Origin: a virus
IMG/VR virus record: IMGVR_UViG_3300030019_000106
Coordinates: 1-34,416 of that record
DNA length: 34,416 bases
Direction: 5' to 3' (one strand)
Numbering within the stretch: position 1 is the stretch's first letter; every line of letters starts with the position of its first letter. The notes under the pieces were generated by a model. That model worked only from the letters and a program-made list of their open reading frames with translations. It was not told the origin of the DNA and did not search any database. Below, in pieces: positions 2,275 through 33,438 of this stretch. Both the position numbers and the translations under genes were made by a program.

Positions 2275-2287
2275 GGAAGTGAAATAA

Positions 2288-5868: not shown

Positions 5869-5908
5869 GATTAATAATTAAAAATATTAAGTGAAAGAAG
5901 GAAGAAGC

Positions 5909-7018
5909 ATGGGAAGAAAAAAGACGACCAAAGAGTTTGTCGAAGAAATGAAAGTTATCAATTCAAACATTGAAATAATCGGAGAATACAAGGGGAATAA
6001 GAAACATATAACATGCAGATGTAAAATTGACGGTTGTTTCTGGGATGCTAAACCCAACAATCTCGTTTGTGGTAGTGGCTGTCCTAAATGTGGTAAAAAA
6101 TATCGCAGAAATCATGAAGAGTTTGTTCAAGAAATAAAAATAATAAATCCTAATATTGAAGTAATAGGCAACTATGTAAATGTTTGTACTAAAATAGAAT
6201 TTAAATGTAAAATAGATGGACATGTTTGGGTTGCAAAGCCAGATAATATTCTGAAAGGGTCAGGATGTCCAAAATGTAGTGGGCTTATGCGAAAAACAAC
6301 AGAGCAGTTTAAAAAAGAGGTGTACTCAAAGGTACAAAACGAGTATACAGTATTGGGTAATTATGTTAATTCTATGACAAAAATATTATTTCAACATAAT
6401 CACTTAAAATGCAAAAATTATAAATTTAAAATGTCTCCGAATGATTTTTTAAATAATGGAACAAGGTGTCCGAGATGCTCAGGAAGATATAGAACGCCTG
6501 AAGAATTCGAAACCCAAATTTTTGAATTAGTAGGCGAAGAATATAGTGTTTTAGAAGAATATAAAAAAGCCAGTTCAAAAATTCTGATGCGACATAATGC
6601 ATGTGGGCATGAGTGGAGAGTATCGATTGGCAATTTTCTACAAGGTAGTAGATGTCCAAATTGCAATAAGTCAAAAGGCGAAAGAAAAATTGAAGAATAT
6701 TTGAAAAACAACGACATTAATTATGTGTCTCAAAAGGAATTTGACGGGTTGGTTGGACAAAACAAAGGGAATCTTTCCTATGATTTTTATTTGCCAAACT
6801 ATAATCTACTCATAGAATATCAAGGTGAACAACATGAAAAACCAGTAGATTTCTGTAGCGAGGGTGTGGATATAGCCGAAAAAAGATTTAAAAAGCAGCA
6901 GGAGCATGATAAACGAAAAAGAAATTTTGCCAAAGAAAGCAATATTAAATTATTAGAGATTTGGTACTCTGATCTTGCAAACACAGGATTAATATTAGAA
7001 AGCCAATTAATTAATTAA
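5909..7018 (+). CDS. Free-standing homing endonuclease: four zinc-finger repeats plus PD-(D/E)XK-type nuclease
   Basis: Four tandem repeats of about 62 residues occupy residues 6-255. Each ends in a treble-clef-like CPxC knuckle (CPKC at 58 and 120, CPRC at 187, CPNC at 249) and has an upstream Cys/His pair such as CRCKIDG or HNACGHEW. The C-terminal domain (256-369) has the order expected of a Vsr/PD-(D/E)XK nuclease: GERKIEEYL, YDFYLP (Asp292), LIEYQGEQH (Glu303) and a Lys-rich helix. Such proteins cut intron-less or gene-less alleles and spread by homing; the zinc repeats probably read the DNA site. I chose ATG 5909 with AAGGA upstream over the in-frame GTG at 5891, which precedes that site. 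It sits alone between the portal and protease genes, inside a conserved head block, as free-standing homing genes often do. Its target is unknown. Confidence 0.85.
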   Translation: MGRKKTTKEFVEEMKVINSNIEIIGEYKGNKKHITCRCKIDGCFWDAKPNNLVCGSGCPKCGKKYRRNHEEFVQEIKIINPNIEVIGNYVNVCTKIEFKCKIDGHVWVAKPDNILKGSGCPKCSGLMRKTTEQFKKEVYSKVQNEYTVLGNYVNSMTKILFQHNHLKCKNYKFKMSPNDFLNNGTRCPRCSGRYRTPEEFETQIFELVGEEYSVLEEYKKASSKILMRHNACGHEWRVSIGNFLQGSRCPNCNKSKGERKIEEYLKNNDINYVSQKEFDGLVGQNKGNLSYDFYLPNYNLLIEYQGEQHEKPVDFCSEGVDIAEKRFKKQQEHDKRKRNFAKESNIKLLEIWYSDLANTGLILESQLIN

Positions 7019-13600: not shown

Positions 13601-13619
13601 AAACAAGGAGGAATTTTTT

Positions 13620-13766
13620 ATGAGTACACCTAATAGATGGGCTGTCCGATCAGTTGCGAGGGCTTCATTTTATTCCCTAGTAGACGGAAAAATGCTCACA
13701 TACCTAGACACACTAAAATCTTCAGGAATGGATGTCAAGAGTACGACCACTTATGCTCGTGGAGGT
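13620..13766 (+). CDS. Major tail protein, exon 1 of 3
   Basis: Encodes the first 49 residues (starts MSTPNRWAVRSVARASF, ends TTYARGG) of the tail tube subunit. A GGAGG ribosome binding site precedes ATG 13620. Unspliced, translation would stop one codon later (AAC TAA), giving a 50-residue stub. The exon ends in GGAGGT, which pairs with GCCTCC at 13782-13787 to form a six-pair P1 with the U-G pair at the splice site. Joined to exons 2 and 3 it gives a 268-residue protein with the phage major tail protein pattern: an N-terminal arm, the KLIGFSSDKETKITLQDAL strand region and the DPAVLDIPIEVL C-terminal strand. These subunits stack as hexamers around the tape measure. Confidence 0.85.
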
Positions 13767-14179
13767 AACTAATTACCAATCGCCTCCCATATTCGTAAAG
13801 AGTATGGAACAATGTAAATTGGTTTAATGCTAATTACATTTAAAACCCATTGAACTGCTGGAAACTCCTAAAGCCTATTAAACTAAAACGTAAGAATGAA
13901 ATAAGTCTAAACGTGAAAGTTACGAAAGTAGAAAAAATTAATAGGATAGTGCAAGGTTAAATCCTAAACACTTATATATAATGGACAATCAGCAACTAAG
14001 CCTTTAATAGAGGAAAGTTCAACGACTATTCCGTAACGGGAAGTACCTGCAAGTGCGGGGAAGTGGTGGGGTGCTTAGAAATAAGTGCGTGATATAGTCT
14101 AGCCTCATATGAGAGTATGAGAAGTTCATAGGACGATAAGCCTTGAGAACTGCATATAAATAACGAATATATGTGAATG
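13767..14179 (+). ncRNA. Group I intron, no ORF, in major tail protein gene
   Basis: A 413-nt self-splicing intron. P1 pairs exon GGAGGT (13761-13766) with GCCTCC (13782-13787). P7 pairs GACTA (14024-14028, in GTTCAACGACTA) with TAGTC (14095-14099, in GATATAGTC), matching the conserved R and S elements of group I introns. A hairpin (CATATA / TATATG) precedes the 3' end, which closes GAATG with the terminal G at 14179. P10 is weak (2 pairs), so the 3' site is less certain than the 5' one; it is the only G that keeps the frame and avoids the TGA at 14174. No protein-coding frame lies inside. Confidence 0.88.
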
Positions 14180-14737
14180 GAAATTTATGGAAAATTTCGT
14201 GACGGTAATGTTAAACTTATCGGCTTCAGCTCAGACAAGGAAACTAAAATAACTTTGCAGGATGCTTTGTTTGATAATAATGTTATGGCATTATTGACAG
14301 GCAATACTCTTATAGAGGGGACAAAAAATATTTATAAGAGAGACGTTGTAGCTGTAACTACACATGCGGCTTCTATTACTAAAACACCAGTTGGAAGTCT
14401 TGCAGGAGTGTTCTTGCTCAATGGCGATGGTTCTAATGGAAAAGAACTTACTAAAGCAGTAAGTACAGTAGGCACAGGAGAATATAGTATCACCGCAAAG
14501 GCAATATCAACTTTTACCGATATAGCTGATGGCACTAAATTAGCTGTTTATTACAAAGTAGCTTCAGGTGTTTCATCTAAGACAATACAGGTAACTTCTG
14601 ACAAATTCGGTGCATCATTTTTACTTATTATGGAAGTTCTTGTAACAGACATTTTAACCAAAGCTCTTTATCCTGCACAGATAAAAGTATTTAACTGCAA
14701 GATTGAGGATGCATGGAAACTAGAATTTAAACCTGAT
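14180..14737 (+). CDS. Major tail protein, exon 2 of 3
   Basis: Encodes 186 residues from EIYGKFRDGNVKL to LEFKPD. An ATG at 14177 makes this look like a free gene, but there is no ribosome binding site there and the protein is clearly a middle piece: it continues the tail tube fold and lacks both ends. Reading on unspliced adds RSLSSITEM and a stop at 14765. The proper continuation is KPD joined to GDPAVLDIP in exon 3. Internal strands such as KTPVGSLAGVFLLN and TSDKFGASFLLIMEVLV fit the tail tube barrel. Confidence 0.85.
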
Positions 14738-15015
14738 AGATCGCTGTCGTCTATAACAGAAATGTAATAGATTATTATTCCTGAAGAAAACGGGAAGGCT
14801 AAGTTGTTTAAAGACAATACGCTAATCCGAGTGGAAGGCTAATGGTAACGCATTGGTCACACGCAACGCATAGAAGGTGAAACTACATTTGTAGAATATA
14901 ATCCTTCCAAGAGTCAGGGACACCTAAACGTAAAGACGTAGGTGAAAAGGTATGCTGAACTTATAGGAAACTATAAGAACTAGAGGATAAAAAGCCTTTA
15001 GGATAACAGGGATTG
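14738..15015 (+). ncRNA. Second group I intron in major tail protein gene
   Basis: A 278-nt ORF-less intron. The 5' exon ends in T (14737) and the intron in G (15015). P10 is strong: exon 3 GGTGATC (15016-15022) pairs over 7 positions with GATCGCT (14739-14745). P1 is short (TGAT with GTCG at 14746-14749). P7 is likely AGTCA (14912-14916) with TGAACT (14956-14961, one bulged A), and P8 is the hairpin CACCTA / TAGGTG (14921-14944). An alternative P1 (ATAGAT with GTCTAT, 5' site after 14741) has more pairs but no in-frame 3' partner. Removal joins ...FKPD to GDPAVLDIP, restoring the protein. Confidence 0.8.
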
Positions 15016-15117
15016 GGTGATCCCGCAGTATTGGATATTCCGATTGAGGTGCTTAAAGACCCTTCAAGTTCAAGTTTATGGGAGATGACTATATATTCGG
15101 AAGACGAAATAGTATAA
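15016..15117 (+). CDS. Major tail protein, exon 3 of 3
   Basis: Encodes the last 33 residues, GDPAVLDIPIEVL to SEDEIV, ending at TAA 15115-15117. It has no start codon or ribosome binding site of its own and is too short to be noticed as a gene. The DPAVLDIP(I)EVL strand is the typical C-terminal part of siphovirus major tail proteins, which is why I looked for an intron between exon 2 and this piece. Confidence 0.82.
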   Translation, partial: GDPAVLDIPIEVLKDPSSSSLWEMTIYSEDEIV

Positions 15118-15138
15118 CAAACAATTAATAACATAGAC

Positions 15139-15167
15139 TTGACAATGCTGACCTAATATGTTAGTAT
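15139..15167 (+). promoter_or_regulatory. Sigma-70-type promoter upstream of lysis block
   Basis: TTGACA (15139-15144) and TAGTAT (15162-15167) are separated by 17 nt. A TATAAT at 15167-15172 is also present but its spacing from the -35 is 22 nt. The expected start is near 15174, in the gap between the tail protein and the amidase. Confidence 0.55.
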
Positions 15168-15173
15168 ATAATT

Positions 15174-15319
15174 AGAGGATAGATAAAAGTAGCTCTTTTT
15201 ATTGACAAGCGTACCATCCTAAGTACGCTTCCTCTACTATTATTTTAGGACTCTTTATAACAACTAATAAAACTCAATAACTGCGACAATTATATGAGAA
15301 CCCGTTTGGGTTCTTTTTT
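15174..15319 (+). ncRNA. Possible short structured RNA or attenuated leader
   Basis: The span between the promoter and the terminator at 15297 carries no gene. TAGAGG (15173-15178) can pair with CCTCTA (15231-15236), enclosing a perfect hairpin AAGCGTAC (15207-15214) / GTACGCTT (15223-15230). With the terminator this would make an RNA of about 145 nt. It may be an independent small RNA or the leader of the lysis transcript ending in an attenuator. The existence of the transcript is inferred from the sites alone. Confidence 0.35.
15297..15319 (+). terminator. Rho-independent terminator before amidase
   Basis: AGAACCC (15297-15303) pairs with GGGTTCT (15308-15314) around GTTT and is followed by TTTTT. 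It stops transcripts from the tail protein gene or from the 15139 promoter before the lysis genes. Confidence 0.9.
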
Positions 15320-15361
15320 ATTATACAAAAATATATAAAAATAAAAAAGGAAGTGTGTTTC

Positions 15362-16336
15362 ATGAGGATAGCGATTGGAAAAGGACACAACGAAGGGTGT
15401 CAGGGTGCTAATGGTCTTGTAAATGAGGTTAGAGAAGATAGGCTTTACGGTCAGGCTGTAATAGATGCTTTTCGTGCCGCAGGACATGAAGTATTAGATA
15501 TAACACCACCAAGAACATTAACTTCAGCACAGGATTTGACATATAGAGTTAATAAAGCTAACGCATGGGGAGCTGATCTTGTAATATCTTGTCACGTAAA
15601 TGCAAGTGGTGGTTGTGGGGCAGAAGTTATTTATCAGGCAAACAAATCAGCAAGTAAAGTTTATGCAGATAAAGTACAGGCAGGTTTTGTAAAATTAGGG
15701 TTTAAGAATCGTGGTACATATGCAGATGTAAGAGGTTTGTATGAAATTAAAAATCATAAAGCTCCTTGTATTATAATCGAGCCATTTTTCTGCGATTCGA
15801 CAACGGATGTATCTTTATATCACAAGCTAGGATATGAAAAGCTAGGTAAAACTATAGCAGAAAGTATTTTAGGACATGCTATTGATGGTGTGCCTAGTAA
15901 TCCTGTTGCTCCTGTTACACCTGTAGCAGACGTTAAACCAAAGGCAAACGCAGATACTCTTTTAATTCAGAAGAGAATGAATAGATTGAGGTTTGTTGGT
16001 GCTAATGGTGCTTCATTAACTGAAGATGGAATATCGGGTACGAACACTGTATTTGCTATTAAGAAATTCCAGTCAATATGTGGTATTACAGAAGATGGAA
16101 TTTGGGGGCGATTAACTGAAGATTGCTTTGCTCAGATAAACTCAAAACCTCTTTGTGGACTTAAATTTGTACAGAGAGTTCCTACAAGATATATTCAGTT
16201 CCGTTTAGGGATTGCTGTAGATGGTATATTTGGAAGTGGTACAGAAGGTAATGTAATATCTTTTCAGAAAAACAATGAAGGATTAACCGTAGACGGTATA
16301 GTTGGACAGGCTTCATGGAAAGTATTAATAGGATAA
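15362..16336 (+). CDS. Endolysin: N-acetylmuramoyl-L-alanine amidase (Amidase_3) with two peptidoglycan-binding repeats
   Basis: Cleaves the bond between MurNAc and the L-Ala of the stem peptide to lyse the host. Residues 1 to about 175 are a zinc amidase of the Amidase_3 family: His9 (IGKGHNEG), Glu22 (NEVRED), His78 (SCHVNAS) and catalytic Glu140 (IIIEPFF). A proline-rich linker (PVAPVTPVADVKP) leads to two PG_binding_1-like repeats (from ADTLLIQKRMN and from KFVQRVPTRYI), each with a DGI(F/W)G turn. The protein has 324 residues and no signal peptide, so it needs a holin to reach the wall. ATG 15362 follows AAGGAA at good spacing; an in-frame GTG at 15353 overlaps that site. Confidence 0.93.
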   Translation: MRIAIGKGHNEGCQGANGLVNEVREDRLYGQAVIDAFRAAGHEVLDITPPRTLTSAQDLTYRVNKANAWGADLVISCHVNASGGCGAEVIYQANKSASKVYADKVQAGFVKLGFKNRGTYADVRGLYEIKNHKAPCIIIEPFFCDSTTDVSLYHKLGYEKLGKTIAESILGHAIDGVPSNPVAPVTPVADVKPKANADTLLIQKRMNRLRFVGANGASLTEDGISGTNTVFAIKKFQSICGITEDGIWGRLTEDCFAQINSKPLCGLKFVQRVPTRYIQFRLGIAVDGIFGSGTEGNVISFQKNNEGLTVDGIVGQASWKVLIG

Positions 16337-16363
16337 GTATTATGCAGAAAGGTAGGATGAGTT

Positions 16364-17152
16364 ATGTACAAGTATAATTTGCAAAGAGACTCAGAAGAAG
16401 GAAAATATAAAGACTATATGTTCAAAAATATCGTTAAAGATATTGCGACTCCTAACCCAATAGATTTAAGACCTCAATTTCCACCAATCTATGATCAGAA
16501 AAATCTTGGTGCTTGTCAAAGTTTTGCCGCAGGAAGTATTAAAGAAAGCAATGATGATTGCAAATATAAGTATTCTGAATTATTTCTTTATTACAATGCT
16601 AGGGATGACAAATCCCAAGACACAGGAACTTCTCTCAGACAGGTGCTTGACAGTGGAAGAAAATATGGTATGTGCGAAGATAAATATTGGAAATACATAG
16701 TAGGTAATTTTAGTTTAAGACCACCAACAGAAGCATATGATGATGGACTACTTCATACTTTTAAAACATATTACAGGGCAGTATCAATCGATGAAATAAT
16801 ACAGGCTATGGCTATGGGTTATAAAGTCATGATTGGTATTGAAATATATGAGAGTTTTCAATCAAAGCAGTGTATGAGTACAGGCATAGTCCCGTATCCA
16901 AAGGGTGAATTATTAGGAGGACATGCACTTGATATAGTTTACTCTGAACGTGCTTTGACAGCAACTAAAAAGGTATGTTTCTTTAAACGATTTATGAACA
17001 AACTAAAAGGCGTACAGCCATCAAAAGGCTTCTTCCTTATTAGGAATAGTTGGAATGAGAGCAATGGACTACCTGAAAGTAGGGGACATTATAAAATTTC
17101 ATTTGAGGTGTTCAATGAATTATTGATGGATGCTTGGATAGTAGTGGAATAA
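16364..17152 (+). CDS. Papain-like (C1A) cysteine protease
   Basis: A 262-residue product with the full papain catalytic set in order: Gln45 of the oxyanion hole (IYDQKNLGAC), nucleophile Cys51 (GACQSFAA), His187 (LGGHALDIV) and Asn228 within FLIRNSWN. The DLRPQFPPIYDQ lead-in matches the start of mature C1 proteases, so there is almost no propeptide. No signal peptide or membrane segment is seen. It lies 27 nt after the amidase and just before the holin-like genes, with a GAAAGGTAGGATGAG leader, so it is probably expressed at lysis. Possible roles are cleaving peptide cross-links or host surface proteins, or processing phage proteins. Fold and active site are clear; the substrate is not known. 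Confidence 0.9.
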   Translation: MYKYNLQRDSEEGKYKDYMFKNIVKDIATPNPIDLRPQFPPIYDQKNLGACQSFAAGSIKESNDDCKYKYSELFLYYNARDDKSQDTGTSLRQVLDSGRKYGMCEDKYWKYIVGNFSLRPPTEAYDDGLLHTFKTYYRAVSIDEIIQAMAMGYKVMIGIEIYESFQSKQCMSTGIVPYPKGELLGGHALDIVYSERALTATKKVCFFKRFMNKLKGVQPSKGFFLIRNSWNESNGLPESRGHYKISFEVFNELLMDAWIVVE

Positions 17153-17175
17153 TAATTAGAATAGGAGGAAATAGC

Positions 17176-17541
17176 ATGGCAAATTTATTAGATACGCTTG
17201 ATAAAGCTAAAGAGGTTGTTAATGGCATAAAAGATATATCTACGATTAATAATGAAACAGTAATGAATGTATCGAATGGAGATACTTCTATGGATTCTGC
17301 TGATGAAAACATAGTAGCTGTTCCTATGGTAACTAAATCAGTAACAAATATGCTTTTATGGATAATGGTAGGGTTTACAATAGCCTTATCTATTGCAGGT
17401 GGCATATGCATGATTGTATTCGACAAGGATATTTCAACTGTAATAACTCAACTTATGGGATATACAGTACCAGTGAGTTTAGGTTGTTTGGCGAAAAAAG
17501 GTGTAGAAAACGTTGCAAACACTAAATATTTAGATAAGTAG
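17176..17541 (+). CDS. Small membrane protein, holin-like
   Basis: A 121-residue product starting at ATG 17176, 8 nt after AGGAGG; an in-frame ATG at 17134 inside the protease gene lacks a ribosome binding site. A polar N-terminal half of about 55 residues precedes one clear membrane helix (LLWIMVGFTIALSIAGGICM) and a second weaker one (ITQLMGYTVPVSLGCLA), with a Lys-rich tail. Size, topology and the place downstream of the endolysin fit a holin or holin partner that lets the amidase reach the wall. No holin family is recognised from sequence alone. Confidence 0.65.
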   Translation: MANLLDTLDKAKEVVNGIKDISTINNETVMNVSNGDTSMDSADENIVAVPMVTKSVTNMLLWIMVGFTIALSIAGGICMIVFDKDISTVITQLMGYTVPVSLGCLAKKGVENVANTKYLDK

Positions 17542-17553
17542 GAGGGTAAATAA

Positions 17554-17706
17554 ATGGACTCTAATGTAGCTGCTTTAATATTTATGGCAATGTTGATGGG
17601 TTTCGTGATAATATTCTTTTGGCTTCCTTTTCATGAAGTCAATAAAAACGACTGTCGTAACTGTAGAATTAATTGTAACAATTGTGAATATAGGAGGAGA
17701 AAATAA
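17554..17706 (+). CDS. Tiny membrane protein with four-cysteine tail
   Basis: A 50-residue product. AGGAGGG (17540-17546) overlaps the upstream stop and lies 8 nt before ATG 17554. Residues 3-24 form one membrane helix (ALIFMAMLMGFVIIFFWLPF). The tail is CRNCRINCNNC followed by basic YRRRK, i.e. CxxCxxxxCxxC, which could bind a metal or form disulfides. Its stop region supplies the ribosome binding site of the next gene. It is likely a lysis accessory (holin partner or spanin-like), by context only; no known family is recognised. Confidence 0.7.
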   Translation: MDSNVAALIFMAMLMGFVIIFFWLPFHEVNKNDCRNCRINCNNCEYRRRK

Positions 17707-17709
17707 AGA

Positions 17710-18201
17710 ATGGATAATATTATAAACTTTATAAATCCATACGTGGCTTTAGTAGTATTGGTAGTAGTTGTATTATATGCAGTGGCATTGATCGCAACTA
17801 AAAAGTTTGGACTAACACTAATTCAGACCACAAAAGCTGTCGTTGATCTGATTAGAAAAGGATTAACTGACGCTAAGATAGGCAATGAGCAGTTGTCCAA
17901 TATATTAATGTTGATGAGTCAGGCAATAGTCTACGTCATAGCAATATCTGAATCAGACGACGTAGACGCACAGACAAATGAAGGTTTGCGTTTCGTAAGA
18001 GACATAATTAGGGAATTTGGATATACTGTTACCGATGCAGAACTTGTTATAATAGCAGACGTTTTGAAAATGGCATTCCAAGTTATAAGTTCAATGAACC
18101 TGAAGGTTACTGCATTGAAGGTTAACAAGGATAGAGTTGATGTGGCATCCGTAACAATGATTGCTGCAAAACTTCAGATGAACGAGTATAAATCCAAATA
18201 A
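17710..18201 (+). CDS. Putative LLH-type holin
   Basis: A 163-residue protein with one N-terminal membrane helix (VALVVLVVVVLYAVALIA) and a long soluble helical part. The pattern LRFVRDIIREFGYTVTDAELVIIADVLKMAF resembles the C-terminal region of phage holins of the LLH superfamily (one TM plus a cytoplasmic helical domain with a 'GI-x-VDE-EL-x-ALIEAAV' like segment). The ribosome binding site GGAGGAG lies in the end of the previous gene, 8-10 nt upstream. It is the last gene of the lysis block, and a strong terminator follows at 18236. Family assignment is tentative. Confidence 0.55.
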   Translation: MDNIINFINPYVALVVLVVVVLYAVALIATKKFGLTLIQTTKAVVDLIRKGLTDAKIGNEQLSNILMLMSQAIVYVIAISESDDVDAQTNEGLRFVRDIIREFGYTVTDAELVIIADVLKMAFQVISSMNLKVTALKVNKDRVDVASVTMIAAKLQMNEYKSK

Positions 18202-18211
18202 GTAGCAGGAC

Positions 18212-18240
18212 TTGACAAATAATTAAAACTATGATAATAT
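18212..18240 (+). promoter_or_regulatory. Promoter-like element overlapping a terminator
   Basis: TTGACA (18212-18217) and TAATAT (18235-18240) are 17 nt apart. The -10 box lies inside the 5' arm of the terminator at 18236-18281, so transcripts starting near 18247 would lack most of that arm and escape termination. The next 130 nt (18282-18412) show no gene. Confidence 0.4.
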
Positions 18241-18290
18241 AAAGATAAGGAGATTGACACAAGCTTTCTTATCTTTATATTATTTTTTTT
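18236..18290 (+). terminator. Terminator of the lysis block
   Basis: AATATAAAGATAAG (18236-18249) pairs perfectly with CTTATCTTTATATT (18268-18281), followed by ATTTTTTTT. It lies 35 nt after the last lysis gene. Confidence 0.9.
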
Positions 18291-18412
18291 AAAATGCAAT
18301 AAAATATTGCTTTTATCGTGTTTTTAAAGTTGAAAAATGAAGCAAACAAGAGAATGATTGAGTAAATAAAAGTTGTGAATTGTCTTATAATTTAATATTT
18401 GTTAGATTTTCC

Positions 18413-18441
18413 TTGACAACTGACAATGATATCCATATGAT
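18413..18441 (+). promoter_or_regulatory. Consensus sigma-70/sigma-A promoter for lipoprotein gene
   Basis: TTGACA (18413-18418), a 17-nt spacer and TATGAT (18436-18441) make the best promoter match in the window. The -35 is followed by a direct repeat of TGACAA. It serves the lipoprotein gene that starts at 18492. Confidence 0.8.
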
Positions 18442-18450
18442 AAAATCATA
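18436..18450 (+). promoter_or_regulatory. Possible operator overlapping the -10 box
   Basis: TATGAT-AAA-ATCATA is a perfect 6-3-6 inverted repeat that begins at the -10 box and covers the transcription start region. A repressor bound here would block the lipoprotein promoter. Such short AT palindromes can arise by chance. Confidence 0.35.
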
Positions 18451-18491
18451 CCCATTTTACATAAAAATTAAATATATAGGGGGATTTTATT

Positions 18492-18818
18492 ATGAAAAAG
18501 GTGATCTTTTTAGTTTTGTGTTTGCTGTCCGTAGCTATGTTGTCAGGTTGTGGAGGGGTTAACACCAGTTTAACAAATGGACAACAATTAACATTAACAA
18601 GTAACACACCTGTTGGTTCATCAAAAGAGGATGTAGACAAAATAATTAATTACGTTAAAGCAAATAATGAAAGTGGATTAGAAGAAATGGAATCTACAGG
18701 GGATGCGAGAGTTTTACCTGCGGGAACAACAGTTACAATAGTAAAAATAGGGATAGTTACTGAAATAAAAACAAAGAATGGTGGACAATATTTTGCTCCA
18801 ATAGAAGTTCTTTATTAA
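18492..18818 (+). CDS. Phage-encoded lipoprotein (moron; possible superinfection exclusion)
   Basis: A 108-residue product with a textbook lipoprotein signal: basic MKK, a hydrophobic core (VIFLVLCLLSVAML) and lipobox LSGC at residues 17-20, so the mature protein is lipid-anchored at Cys20 outside the cell membrane. The mature part is a short acidic helix (KEDVDKIINYVKANNE) followed by a small beta domain (GTTVTIVKIGIVTEIKTKNG). The gene has its own promoter, ribosome binding site (GGGGG) and terminator, and lies between the lysis and tail assembly genes. This is the layout of a moron, a gene expressed independently of the phage programme. Known phage lipoproteins (T5 Llp, TP-J34 Ltp) block superinfection at the cell surface; that role here is an inference. 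Confidence 0.85.
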   Translation: MKKVIFLVLCLLSVAMLSGCGGVNTSLTNGQQLTLTSNTPVGSSKEDVDKIINYVKANNESGLEEMESTGDARVLPAGTTVTIVKIGIVTEIKTKNGGQYFAPIEVLY

Positions 18819-18829
18819 CACAGAAAATC

Positions 18830-18862
18830 AAAAAGCATAAGGGGAAAACTCTTATGCTTTTT
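18830..18862 (+). terminator. Terminator of the lipoprotein gene
   Basis: AAAAAGCATAAG (18830-18841) pairs perfectly with CTTATGCTTTTT (18851-18862) around a 9-nt loop. The A and T runs on both sides allow bidirectional action. Confidence 0.9.
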
Positions 18863-18907
18863 ATATATACACTATGACAAATAATTAAAAATAAAAGGAG
18901 AAATAAT

Positions 18908-19435
18908 ATGAAATTATCAGATTTTTTACAGGAAAAGAAAATTGTTTTTGGAGGAGAGTTGCCACATGTTATCAGCCCTTCTTTAGATGGAGAGGTTATA
19001 TTTTACAATTTGGACACCGAAAGAATTAAATTTATAAACGAAAACATAATTCAGAAATTAAATGAAGGCGAAACTAAGGAATCGGTAACATATAAAATGT
19101 TCCCACACTTAGTAGATATTGAGGCTGACGTTACTTTGGAGAAATTTGTAGAGATGCTGAACAACCCACCGAATAATGAGTTCGCAAATGTCGTGAACGA
19201 GCTTTATGATGCTATGGAGAATTTATTTAATAGAGCTGCAACTGTCTCAGAAATACATAAGAAGAATGAAGAAATGCTCAAGAGAATGCCTGAACTAGCA
19301 GTAACTCCTATAAAAACCAAAGAAGAAATTGAAAAGGAATTAATGGCTGAATTAGGTGGATTGATAGAAAACACTCCTGAAAACAAAGCAAGAAGAAAAG
19401 AGATATTTACATATTTGGCTGAATTAGAAGGGTAA
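18908..19435 (+). CDS. Putative tail assembly chaperone
   Basis: A 175-residue, acidic, helix-rich protein. Its place two genes before the tape measure and the segment EFANVVNELYDAMENLF fit the tail chaperone family (lambda gpG slot), which coats the tape measure before tube polymerisation. AAAGGAG lies 9 nt before ATG 18908. The usual programmed frameshift extension (G-GT) was looked for: the following frame has a TGA at 19455 right before the next start, so no fused product is evident. The role is inferred from position and composition. Confidence 0.55.
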   Translation: MKLSDFLQEKKIVFGGELPHVISPSLDGEVIFYNLDTERIKFINENIIQKLNEGETKESVTYKMFPHLVDIEADVTLEKFVEMLNNPPNNEFANVVNELYDAMENLFNRAATVSEIHKKNEEMLKRMPELAVTPIKTKEEIEKELMAELGGLIENTPENKARRKEIFTYLAELEG

Positions 19436-19463
19436 ATAATAATGGAATTGCAGGTGAGTGAAT

Positions 19464-19871
19464 TTGGATTTTCTTGATGATTATTTCAATCTTTCGTTAA
19501 CACAAATTGCGAATACATGTAGGGAAATTTTACAAGAAGCAATACAATCAGAGGTTTATGACAAATATAATCCCACAAAGTATGAAAGAACATACCAGTT
19601 ATTAAACAATGTAAGAGTTGATATTAAAAATGGGTTTACATATGTTTATGTAAACACAGGTAATATGAAATATACATCTAATAGCAAAAGCGGAGAGGAT
19701 TTTACAAGTGCAGTCCCATTCGTTATAAATTATGGACATAATATAAATGGTCAAGGCGGTAAGTTTATGTATGACTACTACCCTTCAAGGGATTATATGA
19801 GAGTAGCCAAAGAAAGAATTGAAAGAGAGCTTGGTGTAACAGTAGAAATTATTAATAATGAATTAGTTTAA
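19464..19871 (+). CDS. Putative minor tail/completion protein (gp10-like pattern)
   Basis: About 135 residues. TTG 19464 is 6 nt after AGGTGA (19452-19457); an in-frame GTG at 19458 touches that site and is less likely, though possible. The order of an N-terminal helical domain, a strand pair (VRVDIKNGFTYVYVNTG), FVINYGHNI and a C-terminal helix (YMRVAKERIERELG) recalls HK97 gp10-like tail completion proteins that end with an amphipathic helix. That family normally lies before the major tail protein, so the location next to the tape measure is unusual and the call is tentative. Confidence 0.5.
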   Translation: MDFLDDYFNLSLTQIANTCREILQEAIQSEVYDKYNPTKYERTYQLLNNVRVDIKNGFTYVYVNTGNMKYTSNSKSGEDFTSAVPFVINYGHNINGQGGKFMYDYYPSRDYMRVAKERIERELGVTVEIINNELV

Positions 19872-19902
19872 AGGAGTGTCGTTTATAGGCACTTCTTTTT
19901 CT
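19870..19902 (+). terminator. Weak terminator before tape measure gene
   Basis: AAAGGAGTG (19870-19878) pairs with CACTTCTTT (19890-19898) with one G-U pair and is followed by TTTCT. Confidence 0.6.
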
Positions 19903-19930
19903 ATTATTTTGAGAAAGGAGTGAAGTATGA

Positions 19931-21498
19931 ATGGCAAGTAATCCTTTACAAGCACTTAAAATTAATCATAATTTTGCAGACGTAAAAGGCGACTTTGATA
20001 GATTAATTGAACATATAAATAGCGTTGCTAAAAATCCGATCAATTTAAATTTGAATTTAACACAGATAAAAACTCAAATGAACGAATTAACCAGTCAAGC
20101 AGCAAAGTTAAGCCAAACCATGAATTCATCTATGGGGAGTTTCGGTGGGAGTAAAACCACTCAGGAATTAGCCAAAATAGAAGGCGAACTCCAAAAGATT
20201 CGTTCTGAATATGATCAAATAGGGAAATATAAGATAGTTCCTCAGTCGTTTGATAAAAATGGAGAATTAAAAAGTTTTATAGTTCAGCTTGAACAAGCCG
20301 AAGGGTTAATGCAGAAAATAAGATACAACAGCATAAGCAAAGATGTAGGTGGAGTAGCAACGCCTTCGGGAGCTTTCAATGTAACAGGGATAACCCAAAC
20401 GGACAATACTGCTGCGGTTGCTGAGAAACAAAGAGTAGCTAACGAAAAAGTAATCACAGACAAAATGAAATTAGAACAACAGGCGGCTGAAACCCAGAAG
20501 AAATATTTAGCAGAAGAATTAGCTGCTGTTGAAGACACAGACGCAAAAGTAGTAGCCTCCAAACAAAAAGCAGTTGCCGAAGAAATGAAGTTAGATGAGG
20601 CTCAAGCCAAAGCTGTAAATAAAGCACTTGATGAAGAGTATGCTCGTAAACAAAAAATGGCTCAACAGACAAGCCTATTAGGTACAAAAGTGGATGACTC
20701 CAAAACGGGGGCATTAAACTACGATGCTTCTACTGCAAGTATAGAAAAATATTTAAAAGCAAACATGGGTTTAAAAGCTTCAATGACAAGCATAAGCGAC
20801 GTTACAGATTCTTACGGAAACAAAATGAAAAAGATAAATTACACAATGGATGAAGGCGGGGGATTTGTCCATAAGTATCAAATGACAATGGATGAAGCTA
20901 CTAAGAGTTCATATAATTTATCAAAAGGCATAGAGAATGTAGGATTGAAAGAGGGTAACTTTACCGCACGTATCAAAAATGCTATTGTTGCGGTTGCTTC
21001 GTTTGCTACTGTAACAACTGCTTTATATGCGGCTGTTCACCAAGTACAAGAGGGCATTTCCCTTGTAAATAACATGAATAAAGCACAGACAAATATTGGA
21101 ATGATCACAGGTATGACATCATCCGAAACTCAACAGTTGACTAAAGATTATTCTGCTTTGGCAGGACAATTACACGAAACAACAGACTCAATTATGACAG
21201 CAAGTGAGGAGTTTTTGAGAGCAGGTAATAGCATAGAAGATACAGCAACATTGCTAAAATCTTCAACAATTATGTCAAAGATCGCAGGACAGACACAAGC
21301 AGAAGCATCACAATCTTTGATAGCTGTACAGAACGCATATGGAATGAATGCAGGAGAAATGATGAATGTCGTTGATAAACTTGTTGCTGTCGATAATATG
21401 AGTGCGACTTCTACTGCTGAATTATCAGGTGCATTAAATAAAAGTGCGTCGTCAGCTCAAACGGCAGGAGTATCATTTGACCAACTGGTATCGTGGAT
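19931..21498 (+). CDS. Tape measure protein, exon 1 of 4
   Basis: The tape measure fills the tail tube and sets its length. The four exons (1568, 122, 158 and 3402 nt) join in frame to 1749 residues. Exon 1 codes for residues 1-522 plus two bases: an N-terminal segment (HNFADVKGDFDRLIEHINSV), a long Ala/Lys/Gln coiled coil (about residues 155-240) and a hydrophobic stretch (AIVAVASFATVTTALYAAV). The start of the conserved TP901-type core follows (IMTASEEFLRAGNSIEDTA). The exon ends ..QLVSW-AT at 21498. Unspliced, the frame runs NTPVPLFSNK to a stop at 21530, which mimics a truncated gene. ATG 19931 follows AAAGGAG by 10 nt. A tail of roughly 0.26 micrometre would be expected if the usual 0.15 nm per residue holds. 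Confidence 0.9.
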
Positions 21499-21804
21499 TA
21501 ATACACCAGTCCCTCTATTTAGTAATAAATAGATGATAAGTTGGCTTCTATCGGGAAAACACCAAAGACAGGTCAATTCCGAGGATAAGATTAGCATATG
21601 TTTTATGCTAAAATCCGTAACGACTCAGCATCATAATGGTAACATTATGGTCACGCCAACCTTCCATAAATATGGAAGATGATAGAGTCTACTCTGCACT
21701 AATAGTCTATTTTAAAAAGGTGCAGAATTAGGAAGAAATTCCTAATCGCCATAAGATATTTGTGGTCAGTAGGTAATTGAAAAATTATTGAAAGTAATAG
21801 AATG
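21499..21804 (+). ncRNA. Group I intron A in tape measure gene, no ORF
   Basis: A 306-nt intron. P1: exon GGAT (21495-21498) pairs with GTCC (21509-21512). P10: exon 2 TGGT pairs with ACCA directly 5' of that GTCC. P7: GACTC (21622-21626, in CCGTAACGACTC) with GAGTC (21685-21689, in GATAGAGTC). It ends GAATG with the terminal G at 21804. Splicing joins SW-I-GTVSSVTRQSA in frame, and both guide pairings agree with this. Confidence 0.92.
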
Positions 21805-21926
21805 TGGTACAGTTAGTTCGGTTACAAGACAAAGTGCATCAACAATAGGTGCAGGATTTAATAGTATATTTGCAAGGTTTCAATCAGTAAAAGAAGGAAA
21901 AGAGTTCGATCCCGACAACCAACCCT
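21805..21926 (+). CDS. Tape measure protein, exon 2 of 4
   Basis: A 122-nt exon. It completes the split Ile codon, then reads GTVSSVTRQSASTIGAGF, NSIFARFQSVKEGKE and FDPDNQP, and leaves one base (T) for the next codon. This is the conserved central core of TP901-family tape measures. It has no start or ribosome binding site and cannot be an independent gene. Confidence 0.9.
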
Positions 21927-22210
21927 TAAATGTGAGGGGCATAGTAGCATAATAAATAAACTACTATGAAAATTTTCTCTTATATACGACGAAGTGCCAG
22001 TGATGGTTAACGTCTTGGAAGATATAAAAACATTTATATCGCCAACAACGACTTATCGAGAAAAGCCTATTCCAAAGATAGGCATGTAAAAGTCTGAACT
22101 CACGCAATAATCTAATAATGAAACGTGAGAGGAATGGTCGGTATGAAATAATTACCTAAAGAAGAACCATTCCCGCCTATATATCTATAGGTCATAAAAG
22201 TAACAGAATG
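21927..22210 (+). ncRNA. Group I intron B in tape measure gene, no ORF
   Basis: A 284-nt intron. P1: exon CCCT (21923-21926) pairs with GGGG (21936-21939); a site one base later (CCCTT with GAGGG) has 5 pairs but no in-frame 3' partner. P7: GACT (22050-22053, in CCAACAACGACT) with AGTC (22091-22094). The 3' end is AAAGTAACAGAATG, with G at 22210, almost the same as in introns A and C. The join gives NQP-L-NNVEKALNRVG. P10 is weak, so an alternative phase-0 pair (after AAT 21931, before AAT 22213), adding one Asn, cannot be excluded. Confidence 0.87.
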
Positions 22211-22368
22211 TGAATAATGTCGAGAAAGCACTAAATAGAGTCGGTATTGCAATGAGGTCGGACAAAGATACATTTAAAGACTTCAATAGTATATTAAATG
22301 AGGTATCAGGAAATTGGGGTAAATATACCGACGTTGAAAAAGCAGAAGTAGCAACCGCAATCGCAGGT
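22211..22368 (+). CDS. Tape measure protein, exon 3 of 4
   Basis: A 158-nt exon coding NNVEKALNRVGIAMRSDKD, TFKDFNSILNEVSGNWGKYT and DVEKAEVATAIAG, the most conserved stretch of the TP901-type core. It ends at GGT (22368), where the joined frame has phase 0. Reading on unspliced would give KMCA and a stop. Confidence 0.92.
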
Positions 22369-23666
22369 AAAATGTGTGCCTGAGTATACAGTAATGTATA
22401 TATAGAAGTGAGCTATATCGGTGGAACTCCTAATAGGTAATGCTAAGGACAATACCGAGGGAAGGCTATTTAATTAAGATAAAACCTTTAATTAAGGAGA
22501 TGTATAATAAATTAATAAAAGGTGGAGTAAAGAACAAATTCAAATATTACAAGATAAATATAGCAATGAATCATGGGATAATTTAACAACAATATTACAT
22601 CCATTCACGAAACAAGAGATTCAACACAAGGCATATAAATTGAAAATAAAAAGAGATGCCTTTTATTGGACTAACGAACAAATGGAATATTTGCAAGAAA
22701 ATTTTTATAAAAAATCTAACAAAGAATTAACCAAAATACTCGATAAAACAACAAGTGCAATTGAAACAAAAGCCTATAAAATGGGGCTAATAATATCCAA
22801 TAAATGGACAGATGAAGAATTAAAATATTTAGTAGCAAATTATTCTTCTGTCGATAATAAAGATATTATTAAATTCATAGATAGGAATATTGATTGCATA
22901 ATAATGAAGGCAATGGAATTAGGGTTGAAAAAAGAAGTTTTTAATAAAAAATATAATCCTGATGAATTTCTGAACAATTTAAGCAACTATGCTAAAAAAT
23001 TAGGCAGAACACCATTGGTAACAGAAGTTTTTGAACAAGAATGGGCGTTACCAAATGCATCATTAAATAGATATTTTGGTGGATACAGAAAAGTGTGCCA
23101 AATGTTAGATTTAGATATAAATGCAAATATATTCGGTTCTAAATTTCCGATATATAAATCAAATAATGGAGATTTGTGCTGGTCAAAAGCAGAGCTTTAT
23201 ATTACAAACTTTTTTATCGATAATTCGATAGAATATAAAAGAGAAGTTTATTATAGAGATTACGCTGAAGATGGCAGATTTAATAACAAAACAAGTGATT
23301 GGATAATAAATAACAATACTTTTGTTGAATATTTCGGCATGATGGATAAAGATTATTATTATAAAAAAGCTATAAATAAAATGGATTTATGTAGTGAGAA
23401 TGATTTAAAATTAATTTCTCTTACTCAAAAACATTTAACTAAACTCAATAAAATATTTGAAGGTTTTATATCTTAATTAAATTGAACCCGTAACGACTAT
23501 ACGCTTGCCTCCTATAGTATTAAGAATATAGGATGAAAATATAGTCTGGACTATACAGTAATGTATAGAGAGAAACTCAAGTGTAAAGACACTTTAAAGA
23601 AGCAGTTTCTCCACTATTCTAAGTAGAATAGTCAGTAGCCTTGATAGGGTGAAAGTAACAGAAACG
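22369..23666 (+). ncRNA. Group I intron C in tape measure gene, carrying a homing endonuclease gene
   Basis: A 1298-nt intron with the best-supported ends of the five. P1: exon CAGGT (22364-22368) pairs with GCCTG. P10: exon 4 ACATAT pairs over six positions with ATGTGT just 5' of it. P7: GACTA (23495-23499, in CCCGTAACGACTA) with TAGTC (23542-23546, in ATATAGTC). The endonuclease gene sits in a loop closed by a perfect 13-bp stem, TTTAATTAAGATA (22469-22481) / TATCTTAATTAAA (23469-23481), just before P7, which suggests the P6 loop. It ends AAAGTAACAGAAACG (G at 23666). The join is AIAG-TYQRNKFLALM. The 16-mer TATACAGTAATGTATA occurs near both ends. Confidence 0.94.
22511..23476 (+). CDS. Intron-encoded homing endonuclease, three SANT/Myb-like repeats plus nuclease domain
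   Basis: The reading frame opens after TAA (22508-22510). Three related DNA-binding repeats follow: RWSKEQIQILQDKYS..., FYWTNEQMEYLQENFY... and KWTDEELKYLVANYS..., each of 45-50 residues ending in a KAYKLxI-type helix. Then comes a linker and a PD-(D/E)XK-like nuclease domain (CWSKAELYITNFF, TSDWIINNNTFVEYFGMMDK). The only usual start codon early in the frame, TTG 22640, would delete the first repeat, has no ribosome binding site and lies inside homologous sequence. The first codon, ATT 22511, follows AAGGAG (22494-22499) by 11 nt, so an ATT start giving 321 residues is the simplest reading. It probably cuts intron-less tape measure alleles at the exon 3/4 junction. Its stop codon lies in the stem that closes the loop. 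Confidence 0.82.
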   Translation: MNKRWSKEQIQILQDKYSNESWDNLTTILHPFTKQEIQHKAYKLKIKRDAFYWTNEQMEYLQENFYKKSNKELTKILDKTTSAIETKAYKMGLIISNKWTDEELKYLVANYSSVDNKDIIKFIDRNIDCIIMKAMELGLKKEVFNKKYNPDEFLNNLSNYAKKLGRTPLVTEVFEQEWALPNASLNRYFGGYRKVCQMLDLDINANIFGSKFPIYKSNNGDLCWSKAELYITNFFIDNSIEYKREVYYRDYAEDGRFNNKTSDWIINNNTFVEYFGMMDKDYYYKKAINKMDLCSENDLKLISLTQKHLTKLNKIFEGFIS

Positions 23667-26600
23667 ACATATCAGCGTAACAAGTTCCTCGCCCTCATGG
23701 ATAACATGAATATGGCTCTGAAACTACAAACCGCAGAAACAGACAGTGCAGGAAACGCTATGGACAGATATGGAACTTATGCTAAAAGTACAGAAGCTAA
23801 AATGAACGACTTAAAAAATGCTACACAGCAGTTTTGGATAAACGCAGTAAATAGTGACGTAATTAACAACTTCATTTCAGGCGTTACTAATATCGTTAAT
23901 AATTTACAAGCACTGCAAGCAATGCCTATTCAAGTTAGTGGAGCGATAGGCATTTTAACGGCAGCCTTGATAGCTCTTACCGTTGCAACATTCCACTTCA
24001 AAGCAGACGTAATGAGTGCTGCTTTAATGAAAATATTAACAAGTGCAGGAGAAACCGCCGTAATTTTAAGAGGAATGTCAGTGGCAGAAGGTTTGGCTAC
24101 CGTTGCAACTGAAGGGTTAACTGTAGCGGCAAGAGGTTTAACTACCGCCGCCGTTGCTTTATTTTCGCCTATAAACATACTTATTGGTGTTTTAGCCTTA
24201 GTAACAGCAGGTGCAATGGGATATGTTCAGCATATGACCGACCTTAAAGAACAGACAGATAAAAACAAAGCATCTATTGAAGCTTTGACTAAAGCTATGA
24301 AAGAAAATAATGCTGAAGCTATGAAATCTGGTTCAACAGACTTAGAAGGGCAACAAAGTAATTACCGAGAATTATTAAAACAAAAACAGGTGGCAGAAGC
24401 AAACTTAAAGAAGGTAAGTAATACTACAACAGGCAATGCTTTCACAGATCAAAATGCACTTTCAAAAGCACAAATAGAACTTGAAAGAGTTAACTCATTA
24501 TTATCAGATCAGAAGCAAGTTTTAAAAGATGCAGGAGCTGGATTCAATGAGTTAACAGGCGAGATATATAAAGTTACAGCAGCACAAGCAAGGCTCACAG
24601 ACCAAAAGATTATAACGGGTATTAAAAACACCACAAAAGCCGAGATTGACAACAAAGATGGAATCATAAAATTGTATGCCGAGTATAAAAGACTTATCAG
24701 TTCACATCAAGACGCTTCAATTCAAGCTCAAGACTTAGCAAATAGAATAGCAGGAGTAACTACTGCTACAGATGAAAATGGTAATACTGTTGTAGTAAAT
24801 ACTGGATTAATTGATAAAGAAATTCAAATGTTTGGTCAAGAAGGGCTTACTGTAACAGATTTAGCAAATGCGAAAATGGAAGCCGCCAAAAGTGCCATGT
24901 CATGGAACATAAACGAAACTCAGGTTACTTATGAGCAAATTAAGCAGAGAATTAAATATTATGGAGATGAGATCAATGCTTTAAATGCACTCATGGCAAA
25001 ACAATCTCAACAATATACCGACGCACAGATTAAGGGCGGTATAGCACCAGACGGAACAACACTTATGACACCTGCCGAAGCTTCACAAAGAAAAGCAGGA
25101 AACGATGTAACTCAAGGGATTTATCAATCTGCACAAAACTCTATTGATGCTATATATAACAGTTTGAGCGCACCGTCAAGTTCTACGCCAACAGACGGAT
25201 ACCCCCCATCAGGTACTTCCGCAGACAAAGCAGCCGCAGCAAAAAAAGCAGCCGACGATGCAGCCGCACAAGCAAAGAAAAACTCCCAAGCTTTGATAGA
25301 CCAGTGGCAAGAAGCATCCGATGCAGTTGTATCAGGATATGAAAAACAAATTGATGCTATAAATGCCAAAGCAGACGCAGAAAAAAGGGCAACTCAAGAA
25401 TTAGAATATCAGAATAAATTAATCAAAATCCAAAACGAGTTGAAAAATACACAGAACGAAAAGAATGTTCGATTGTATAGCAATGGTGGTTGGACTTGGG
25501 TTGCAGATCAGCAACAAATTACAAAACTAAAAGATGATTTGGCAACTGCAAAGACTGATTATTCTTCATGGCAAGCTGACAATGCTAAAACTGACCAAAT
25601 CGCAAGTATCCAATCGTCTATAGATGCTGAAAAAGCACGAGTTTCTGCACAGGTGTCTGCCGAACAAAAGAAAATAAATGGTTATGCGAGCGGTACAGAT
25701 TATGTCCCAAAAACCGACGAGTATCTTGTAGGTGAAAATGGTCCAGAAAAAGTAATATTGGCTCAAGGTTCAAAGGTAATCCCAAATAACAAACTGAGCG
25801 AAGCTCCTACACAAAACGTAACTTCTGCAACAGGTAAATTGCTTGGTGATGTAGATCAGAGTGTCAAAAAATTTGTAGACAGCGCAAAGAATTATTCAAA
25901 GGACTTAGACAAAAACATGGGAGATTCTTTGACAGTAAATGATAAATTACTTAAAGAACCATTAGATAATCTAATATCCGATGTTAGTGGCAATATACAA
26001 ACATTTGTCGATGATTCCCCCACTTACGGAAAGGACATGAATGACAACATAGGTAAAGCAATAACATCAAATGACCCATTAGTAATAAATCCTATGAATG
26101 CGGTGATAACAAAACTTCAAACTGGTATAACGGATTTTGTAAAAACAATGTATCCTTCAGGAACAAGTACCGTAAGTGAATTAGGTAACGGAATAACAAA
26201 CTCTACAGATGCAATAGCTACTGTAGTTGACACTTTAACAGCTAAGATAATAACTCAATTTAAAACAGGCTTTGGAATTGCATCTCCTTCTACTGTAATG
26301 TATGAGATCGGTGACTTCATGATGCAAGGTCTGATTAATGGTATGACGGATAGCGATGTTACTACTGTAATCAATCAAAAGGTATCGAGTTCAATTACGG
26401 CGGCACAAGCAGCAATGGGAAGTGCAGGAGCTACAGGAGACGTTACAAGTTGGCTAACACAAGCTATTCAGGCAACAGGAATAGGCATGGAAAATCTAGC
26501 AGCCTTGCAAACTATAGCTATGAAAGAGAGTGGTGGCAATCCTAATTCTATTAACTTAACTGACAGCAATGCAATAGCAGGTCATCCAAGTCAAGGACTT

Positions 26601-27068
26601 ATGCAAACAATTCCTTCTACCTTTAACGCTTATAAACTCGCAGGTCACGACAATATACTGAATCCTGTAGATAATGCAATAGCAGCGATTCGGTATATTT
26701 TGGCAAGATATGGAAGTGTAAATAATGTCCCAGGAATTGTATCTATGAGAAACGGTGGAGCTTACAAGGGATACGCAAAGGGGACAGATTATGTTCCAAG
26801 GACAGGAGAATATCTTGTAGGTGAAGAAGGCGTAGAGAAAGTAATCTTACCTGAAGGTGCAAAGGTTATTCCAAATAATAAATTGCTTTCAGGTGATTTG
26901 TCCAACAGCTTTAGAATGCCTAACTTAGACACTTTAAAAAGTGCAGCAAGTGCAGCATCTCAGAAGATAAGCAACTACAATTTTACATTCGATAAAGTTG
27001 TAGCTGAAAATGTAGATAGTTTTGTTAGACAAGCTAAAACATTTACCGCAGTTCGTAATCAATATTAA
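23667..27068 (+). CDS. Tape measure protein, exon 4 of 4, with transglycosylase domain
   Basis: Codes for residues 617-1749. It begins TYQRNKFLALMDNMNMAL, the end of the conserved core. Hydrophobic segments follow (AIGILTAALIALTVATF and SPINILIGVLALVTAGAMGYV), typical of tape measures that insert in the host membrane. Next are an Ala/Lys coiled coil (about 1110-1150), a Trp-containing repeat region, and a lytic transglycosylase-like domain near 1550-1640: MKESGGNP with candidate catalytic Glu1570, SQGLMQTIPSTF and DNAIAAIRYILARYG. That domain would open peptidoglycan during DNA entry. Two copies of a 39-residue GTDYVP module flank it. The GTG at 23649 that could be taken as a start lies inside intron C. 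Confidence 0.92.
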   Translation, partial: TYQRNKFLALMDNMNMALKLQTAETDSAGNAMDRYGTYAKSTEAKMNDLKNATQQFWINAVNSDVINNFISGVTNIVNNLQALQAMPIQVSGAIGILTAALIALTVATFHFKADVMSAALMKILTSAGETAVILRGMSVAEGLATVATEGLTVAARGLTTAAVALFSPINILIGVLALVTAGAMGYVQHMTDLKEQTDKNKASIEALTKAMKENNAEAMKSGSTDLEGQQSNYRELLKQKQVAEANLKKVSNTTTGNAFTDQNALSKAQIELERVNSLLSDQKQVLKDAGAGFNELTGEIYKVTAAQARLTDQKIITGIKNTTKAEIDNKDGIIKLYAEYKRLISSHQDASIQAQDLANRIAGVTTATDENGNTVVVNTGLIDKEIQMFGQEGLTVTDLANAKMEAAKSAMSWNINETQVTYEQIKQRIKYYGDEINALNALMAKQSQQYTDAQIKGGIAPDGTTLMTPAEASQRKAGNDVTQGIYQSAQNSIDAIYNSLSAPSSSTPTDGYPPSGTSADKAAAAKKAADDAAAQAKKNSQALIDQWQEASDAVVSGYEKQIDAINAKADAEKRATQELEYQNKLIKIQNELKNTQNEKNVRLYSNGGWTWVADQQQITKLKDDLATAKTDYSSWQADNAKTDQIASIQSSIDAEKARVSAQVSAEQKKINGYASGTDYVPKTDEYLVGENGPEKVILAQGSKVIPNNKLSEAPTQNVTSATGKLLGDVDQSVKKFVDSAKNYSKDLDKNMGDSLTVNDKLLKEPLDNLISDVSGNIQTFVDDSPTYGKDMNDNIGKAITSNDPLVINPMNAVITKLQTGITDFVKTMYPSGTSTVSELGNGITNSTDAIATVVDTLTAKIITQFKTGFGIASPSTVMYEIGDFMMQGLINGMTDSDVTTVINQKVSSSITAAQAAMGSAGATGDVTSWLTQAIQATGIGMENLAALQTIAMKESGGNPNSINLTDSNAIAGHPSQGLMQTIPSTFNAYKLAGHDNILNPVDNAIAAIRYILARYGSVNNVPGIVSMRNGGAYKGYAKGTDYVPRTGEYLVGEEGVEKVILPEGAKVIPNNKLLSGDLSNSFRMPNLDTLKSAASAASQKISNYNFTFDKVVAENVDSFVRQAKTFTAVRNQY
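25680..25796 (+). repeat. GTDYVP module, copy 1, in tape measure
   Basis: Codes GYASGTDYVPKTDEYLVGEN ... KVIPNNKL (39 residues). It is about 75% identical by eye to copy 2 at 26769 and matches a module common in tape measure proteins of Gram-positive phages. Confidence 0.85.
26769..26885 (+). repeat. GTDYVP module, copy 2, in tape measure
   Basis: Codes GYAKGTDYVPRTGEYLVGEE ... KVIPNNKL (39 residues). It lies 1.09 kb after copy 1, directly downstream of the transglycosylase domain. Confidence 0.85.
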
Positions 27069-32871: not shown

Positions 32872-32957
32872 TCACATACAATTAATAATCAAAGGTTAAA
32901 AAGAAATTGCGTAGGTTGCAACGCAAGGTATCTAATAAATACCGACTAAATATAAAA

Positions 32958-33397: not shown

Positions 33398-33438
33398 AAT
33401 AAACTTGTTAAATTTAATGTCAGAAAGGTGGTGAGTAA

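Follow-up and report, generated by a model that had tools for sequence, protein, structure and literature searches.

The tail tube gene orf142 of Staphylococcus phage Twort contains three introns. For this gene, which is split by group I introns, exon skipping has been described in a 2025 survey, which also asks why the introns of its own phages reside only in genes of nucleotide and DNA metabolism (PMC11878797). In the mycobacteriophages BAKA and Optimus, a tail-gene intron of 265 bp without endonuclease gene was demonstrated by RT-PCR (Pope et al. 2013, PMC3706429), and the tape-measure gene of Vibrio phage ICP1 consists of four exons and three introns, one of them typically with an HNH endonuclease, with introns in the tail tube gene not being mentioned in the accessible portion of that account (PMC10448857). 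In phage L47, which is among the relatives considered here, introns are located between ribonucleotide reductase genes and the excerpt of the account at hand mentions no intron in the tube gene (PMC3888941). A full-text literature search, outside whose coverage most subscription journals lie, returned no report on introns in the PHROG_2729 family of tube proteins.

Here we describe a locus in an IMG/VR record of 34,416 bases, the whole of which is referred to as the window. Positions 13620-15117 appear to constitute one tail tube gene that is split by two autocatalytic group I introns (IA-like), a reading to which we assign a probability of about 0.93. That both introns are truly and efficiently spliced, and which exact nucleotides are used at intron 1, we infer from the sequence. 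The assignment to a single gene with two introns is based on the homology of the exons, their collinearity with an intronless relative, the RNA cores and the pairing in P1 and P10. Structural genes are rarely organized in this way, although a few other phages are already known to have genes of the kind. Compared to Twort, the gene encodes an SPR-type tube and carries two introns, whose splicing is predicted from the sequence. The BAKA/Optimus intron resembles introns 1 and 2 in its location in a tail gene and in the lack of an endonuclease gene, and intron 2 also in the U at the end of the exon and the G at the end of the intron, and it differs as the single intron of a minor tail gene in phages with a high-GC host (PMC3706429). 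As reference we used IMGVR_UViG_2808606540_000001 (L130), the closest intronless relative found. The predicted features of the gene are as follows:

13620..13766, plus strand: exon 1 of the tail tube gene, 147 nt and 49 codons, matching positions 4-47 of the PHROG_2729 profile
13761..13787, plus strand: P1 of intron 1, GGAGGT (13761-13766) with GCCTCC (13782-13787), 6/6 pairs including U13766.G
13767..14200, plus strand: putative group I intron 1, about 434 nt, with P7.1/P7.2, based on an RF00028 score of 50.5 bits and covariation
13772..13777, plus strand: P10 strand of intron 1, ATTACC, pairing 6/6 with GGTAAT (14204-14209) in exon 2
14024..14099, plus strand: P7 of intron 1, GACTA (14024-14028) with TAGTC (14095-14099), enclosing P7.1, P7.2, P3' and P8
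14177..14767, plus strand: mechanical ORF of 196 aa from the ORF list, which starts and stops within intron sequence
14180..14198, plus strand: terminal hairpin of intron 1, GAAATTT/AAATTTC, 7/7 pairs, directly before the candidate omega-G 14199
14201..14737, plus strand: exon 2, 179 codons, from an exhaustive join scan against L130
14738..15015, plus strand: putative group I intron 2 with P7.1/P7.2, length 278 nt, consistent with U(-1), omega-G and P10
14868..14955, plus strand: P7 of intron 2, GCATA (14868-14872) with TATGC (14951-14955)
15016..15117, plus strand: exon 3, 102 nt, 33 codons and the stop at 15117

The ORF at 14177-14767 is the sole listed plus-strand ORF of at least 60 aa within 13601-15352. 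It is flanked by an upstream open stretch of 49 codons, separated from exon 2 by about 434 nt in which a usable frame is absent, and by a downstream open stretch of 33 codons at a distance of about 278 nt. The start of exon 1 is strong, with an ATG at 13620 and AAGGAGG upstream, and its end lies at 13765 or 13766, either of which leads to an identical product, with exon 2 starting at 14200 in the former case. The sizes of exons 1 and 3 given in an earlier note on this DNA were reproduced, and the ORF list agrees with its statement that only the middle exon looks like a gene. Both ends of this ORF are read as intron sequence. Its first eight residues (MEIYGKFR) and its last nine (RSLSSITEM) are without counterpart in relatives and were for that reason read as part of the introns. 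A true start at 14177 was rejected, as no ribosome-binding site was seen upstream and residues 1-8 are without homologues. Two other explanations of the split gene were also dismissed: a ribosomal frameshift in place of splicing, since 434 and 278 nt with stops separate the exons, and inteins, since neither insert is an open reading frame.

The exons form a continuous family member once they are joined. On PHROG_2729, residues 6-49 of exon 1 match positions 4-47 and residues 9-187 of the ORF positions 48-219, with both pieces abutting in the profile, and the similarity spans the full length of the joined 261-aa product, which gives a single unbroken match (residues 6-257 to positions 4-248 in a profile of 252, E 1.4e-45). 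The same product aligns to L130 over positions 1-257 with 50% identity, and exons 1, 2 and 3 are collinear with this protein, which is uninterrupted at both sites (SYARGGDGNVKL at the site of intron 1, FTPDGDPATLSIP, containing FTPDGDPATLS, at that of intron 2). Residues identical to L130 amount to 32/49 in exon 1, 79/178 in exon 2 and 20 of the 33 aligned in exon 3. To locate the junctions, we scored every stop-free join in a window around each site against L130. For intron 1, the top score of 343 among 1006 joins is common to 13764|14199, 13765|14200 and 13766|14201, all of which encode an identical product. Among the 1351 joins for intron 2, the top score (235) belongs to 14737|15016 only, which combines U(-1) with omega-G; the join KPD|GDPAVLDIP that had been proposed from the sequence thus emerges as the best one.

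The joined product is, as judged from sequence and a structure model, an SPR-type tail tube (major tail) protein and member of PHROG_2729. With a profile constructed from 19 intronless relatives, the SPR tail tube protein of known structure (8k98_A) is matched over positions 6-249 (E 4.7e-17). Within these relatives, G48 and G49 of a GGxG motif are invariant and G51 is nearly so. The protein of L130, whose predicted structure (pLDDT 72.2, pTM 0.55) stands in for the product of the window, detects 8ygm_A in Foldseek (E 1.4e-13) and superimposes on 8xkn_B in VIA-align (Z 15.2, rmsd 3.0, 234 residues aligned). The tail tube fold of this model, together with the profile matches to PHROG_2729 and SPR, agrees with the earlier designation as major tail protein.

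Both introns display a complete core P3-P9 plus P7.1/P7.2 between P7 and P3', an arrangement that is compatible with subgroup IA. When the Rfam model RF00028 was run on a stretch of 1551 bases, it scored intron 1 (13783-14121) at 50.5 bits (E 1.7e-11) and intron 2 (14728-14977) at 20.4 bits (E 0.018), the latter below the cut-off of 50 bits, which is a threshold of the model and not a biological feature. Shorter stretches of this kind were searched because Rfam scans over the whole window, both at the gathering threshold and at E <= 2, reported no intron, probably as a consequence of filters that are stricter on long input. A covariance model built from 12 relatives of intron 2 on other contigs, with the window left out (R1), matches intron 2 at 14785-15002 with 192.7 bits (E 5.1e-59). 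No start-to-stop frame of at least 60 aa is found inside either intron (with frames listed from 30 aa upwards, the longest have 36 and 33 aa), which, in combination with the full cores and their covariation, bears out the description of both introns as ORF-less. P7.1/P7.2 are named as class features of group I introns in the literature (PMC3984707).

Most relatives for the analysis of covariation were obtained by scanning viral contigs for patterns, and others were taken from phage records. The alignment of intron 1 comprises 26 rows, the window and 25 sequences chosen from 44 non-redundant candidates, one of which is the twin of the window, and that of intron 2 comprises 14 rows, the window and 13 sequences selected from 34 matched loci, four of them carrying the window's own sequence. 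In intron 1, 88.7% of the cells in 78 pairs are paired and 66 pairs have changed on both sides. P7.1 is paired in 97.0% and the two parts of P7.2 in 81.3% and 78.0% of their cells, with P8 (68.9%) and P2 (65.0%) being weak. In intron 2, 95.0% of the cells in 57 drawn pairs are paired, with changes on both sides in 43 pairs and pairing in 100% of cells for P7.1 and 94.5% for P7.2. The corresponding slid controls are paired in 28.7-43.2% (intron 1) and 30.6-41.6% (intron 2) of cells, a comparison that somewhat favours the drawn structures since these were drawn on the sequence of the window. In each of five measures, the observed value was reached by 0/500 shuffles for both introns.

The splice geometry of intron 2 is regular. 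Its P1 (TGAT/GTCG) forms 4/4 pairs including a U.G with U14737, omega-G is at 15015 and the resulting join is 14737|15016. The P7 pairing is present in 14/14 rows, with compensatory change at two pairs. The 7-bp P10 between exon 3 and the first bases of the intron, which had already been noticed in the sequence, consists of GATCGCT (14739-14745) and GGTGATC (15016-15022) and pairs in all seven positions, two of them as G.U. In intron 1, the 6-bp P1 and the P7 with classic R/S sequences, both recognized in the initial inspection, are found as described, with P7 embedded in the context AACGACTA ... GATATAGTC and identical in 26/26 rows.

At the join of intron 1 that is demanded by homology, the join scan against L130 shows that U(-1) and omega-G are not both satisfied. 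The combination of U13766 with omega-G14199 would join GGU to UGAC, placing a stop directly after the junction codon, so that one base has to be dropped to obtain the family product. The ends of the intron are thus uncertain by one nucleotide, with 13766-14199 if omega-G is kept, and a 3' end at 14179 as an alternative. The latter would leave the same two introns in place while exon 2 would start at 14180, which would lengthen the GG|DGN loop by the seven residues EIYGKFR. Only 13766|14180, of the joins satisfying both rules, makes use of the U.G in P1, and it is in frame and stop-free. However, it scores 326 compared to 343 for the join of family length, disrupts the conserved GGxG motif and loses the 6-bp P10 with GGTAAT, and we thus regard it as rather unlikely. 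The homology-based product, with exon 2 beginning at about 14200, is the most likely outcome for this join on the basis of the sequence comparison. Intron 1 could also truly break the usual splice rules, either by a shifted splice point for this type of intron, by alternative 3' sites at 14180 and about 14200 that would generate two isoforms of the tube, or by retention of an extra base with +1 frameshifting at the stop to produce the full-length tube, all of which we consider quite improbable.

It is very improbable that the locus is a broken tail gene, either a pseudogene or a relic with non-splicing introns, in a phage that uses another tube protein. The off-by-one at intron 1 might be read as decay, but no stop interrupts the 261 codons of the joined frame, the intron cores are intact and the nucleotide differences from L130 are mostly in third positions (100/76/149 by codon position in 260 aligned codons). 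Moreover, no other ORF scanned in the window, which is itself a fragment, matches PHROG_2729. An assembly artefact that would have joined intron sequence of other phages into what is a metagenomic contig is very improbable, since P1 and P10 fit the local exons and a second IMG/VR contig (L053), possibly from a related sample, overlaps by 14.3 kb with a single mismatch, which lies outside the 1581 bases of 13620-15200.

In the proposed course of splicing, each intron in the late transcript would fold around its own P3-P9 core, with P1 pairing the intron with the end of the upstream exon and P10 with the start of the downstream exon. Two guanosine-initiated transesterifications would then remove each intron, thereby joining exons 1, 2 and 3 to a reading frame of 261 codons. 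Introns 1 and 2 are probably selfish elements spread by homing, whose endonuclease was probably either supplied in trans or has since been lost. A free-standing ORF at 5891-7018, which directly follows the portal gene and precedes the next ORF, is of the HNH endonuclease type and has domains that resemble zinc fingers (phrog_559, Pfam CapR). This protein is a possible homing partner in trans. For group I introns in a structural gene, which is normally highly expressed, the locus provides a well-supported example. It also illustrates how annotation can err: small exons are overlooked, codons of an intron are translated and a lineage of introns falls below the Rfam cut-off.

In related phages, the tail tube gene is located upstream of the tape-measure gene. 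In the window, the region 15353-17152, between the tail tube gene and the remaining tail module, holds the gene of an amidase endolysin, which includes a peptidoglycan-binding domain, as well as a peptidase-like ORF. The tape-measure profile PHROG_4211 is matched by two separate ORFs, 19931-21532 (positions 274-754) and 23649-27068 (840-1077). No tape-measure protein was found in the record of L130 with either of these exons, and we thus took the intronless tape measure of another record (L324) as reference. This protein holds the missing part and matches two mini-exons of the window in order, which suggests the following organization:

19931..21498, plus strand: tape-measure exon a, PHROG_4211 profile 274-754, end from the join scan
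21499..21804, plus strand: putative tape-measure intron A (group I), R1 26.6 bits, E 6.1e-7, with P1-P4 and P6a-P9.1 pairing and a U(-1)/omega-G join
21805..21926, plus strand: tape-measure mini-exon b, collinear with intronless L324
21927..22210, plus strand: putative tape-measure intron B (group I, hand-drawn core), P1-P4 and P6-P9 pairing, U(-1)/omega-G join 21926|22211
22211..22368, plus strand: tape-measure mini-exon c, collinear with L324
22369..23666, plus strand: putative tape-measure intron C, P1, P3, P4 and P7 pairing, weak R1 match (12.4 bits, E 0.018)
22640-23476: endonuclease-like ORF in intron C, phrog_1891 HNH endonuclease, E 4.7e-7
23667..27068, plus strand: tape-measure exon d, the four exons giving one frame of 1749 aa

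The limits of these introns come from join scans requiring U(-1) and omega-G, where the unrestricted best join was higher by 1 (A), 5 (B) and no (C) score units. R1 gave no match on intron B, and Rfam searches of 21350-23750, 32800-34416 and 16300-19960 no group I match, so that the tape-measure introns rest on the join scans, hand-drawn cores and R1. In a blastn search of introns A, B and C against the fetched loci, a short match to B was the only one retrieved. There thus appear to be five group I introns in the two tail genes of the window, with the three in the tape-measure gene being less firmly supported by the sequence. The tape-measure gene of ICP1 shows the same exon-intron layout, with its endonuclease usually in the middle intron, compared to the third in the window (PMC10448857). 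If the tape-measure introns hold, five group I introns would reside in two neighbouring tail genes. The finding of tail genes as intron targets is in contrast to the phages of the 2025 survey (PMC11878797).

Interruptions of the tail tube gene are also found in other phages. In Alicyclobacillus phage KKP_3916 (L005 4457-5633), the homologous gene is split by an intron of the lineage of intron 1 (RF00028 70.2 bits) and has been deposited as two separate hypothetical proteins; it differs from the window by its single intron and by an insertion site that is a few codons away. This intron (L005 4599-4998) would show a comparable off-by-one if C4602 were the last base of the exon, with GCC joined to UAAC and an immediate stop. 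In L174, where a tail tube homologue (2028-3300) is interrupted after GDPS by an intron of the same lineage, both rules fit without offset (2801|3140). A further homologue (L093 3318-5022) contains, as judged by eye, a core-like sequence after ITWD, for which a join scan gave no result. Both L093 and L174 were retrieved by searching for intron motifs and are thus uninformative on frequency. By eye from translations, the gene is interrupted after GDPAV in L341 (2498-3600) and twice in L343 (2498-3900). Introns at several neighbouring but different sites in related tube genes make the repeated invasion of one gene a testable proposition.

KKP_3916 is the one split tube gene seen among 27 phage records with a tube match, of which seven were opened. 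The intron layout of the window is found in one of 34 loci, its twin L129, with some partial matches such as L162 left aside. Among the 17 loci of a genome scan, intron motifs adjoin the 3' part of the gene in L341 and L343, and in L344-L347 the tube gene is matched in pieces; no tube gene split at the site of intron 1 was seen in this set, nor did R1 find a match there. In none of five loci searched did Rfam detect the intron 2-like element; in three of these, L191, L262 and L307, it detected other group I introns. In the tail clusters of related phages, annotated integrase genes are located downstream of the tail tube gene (L003 7677-8669, L006 6786-7787 and L007 7138-8115).
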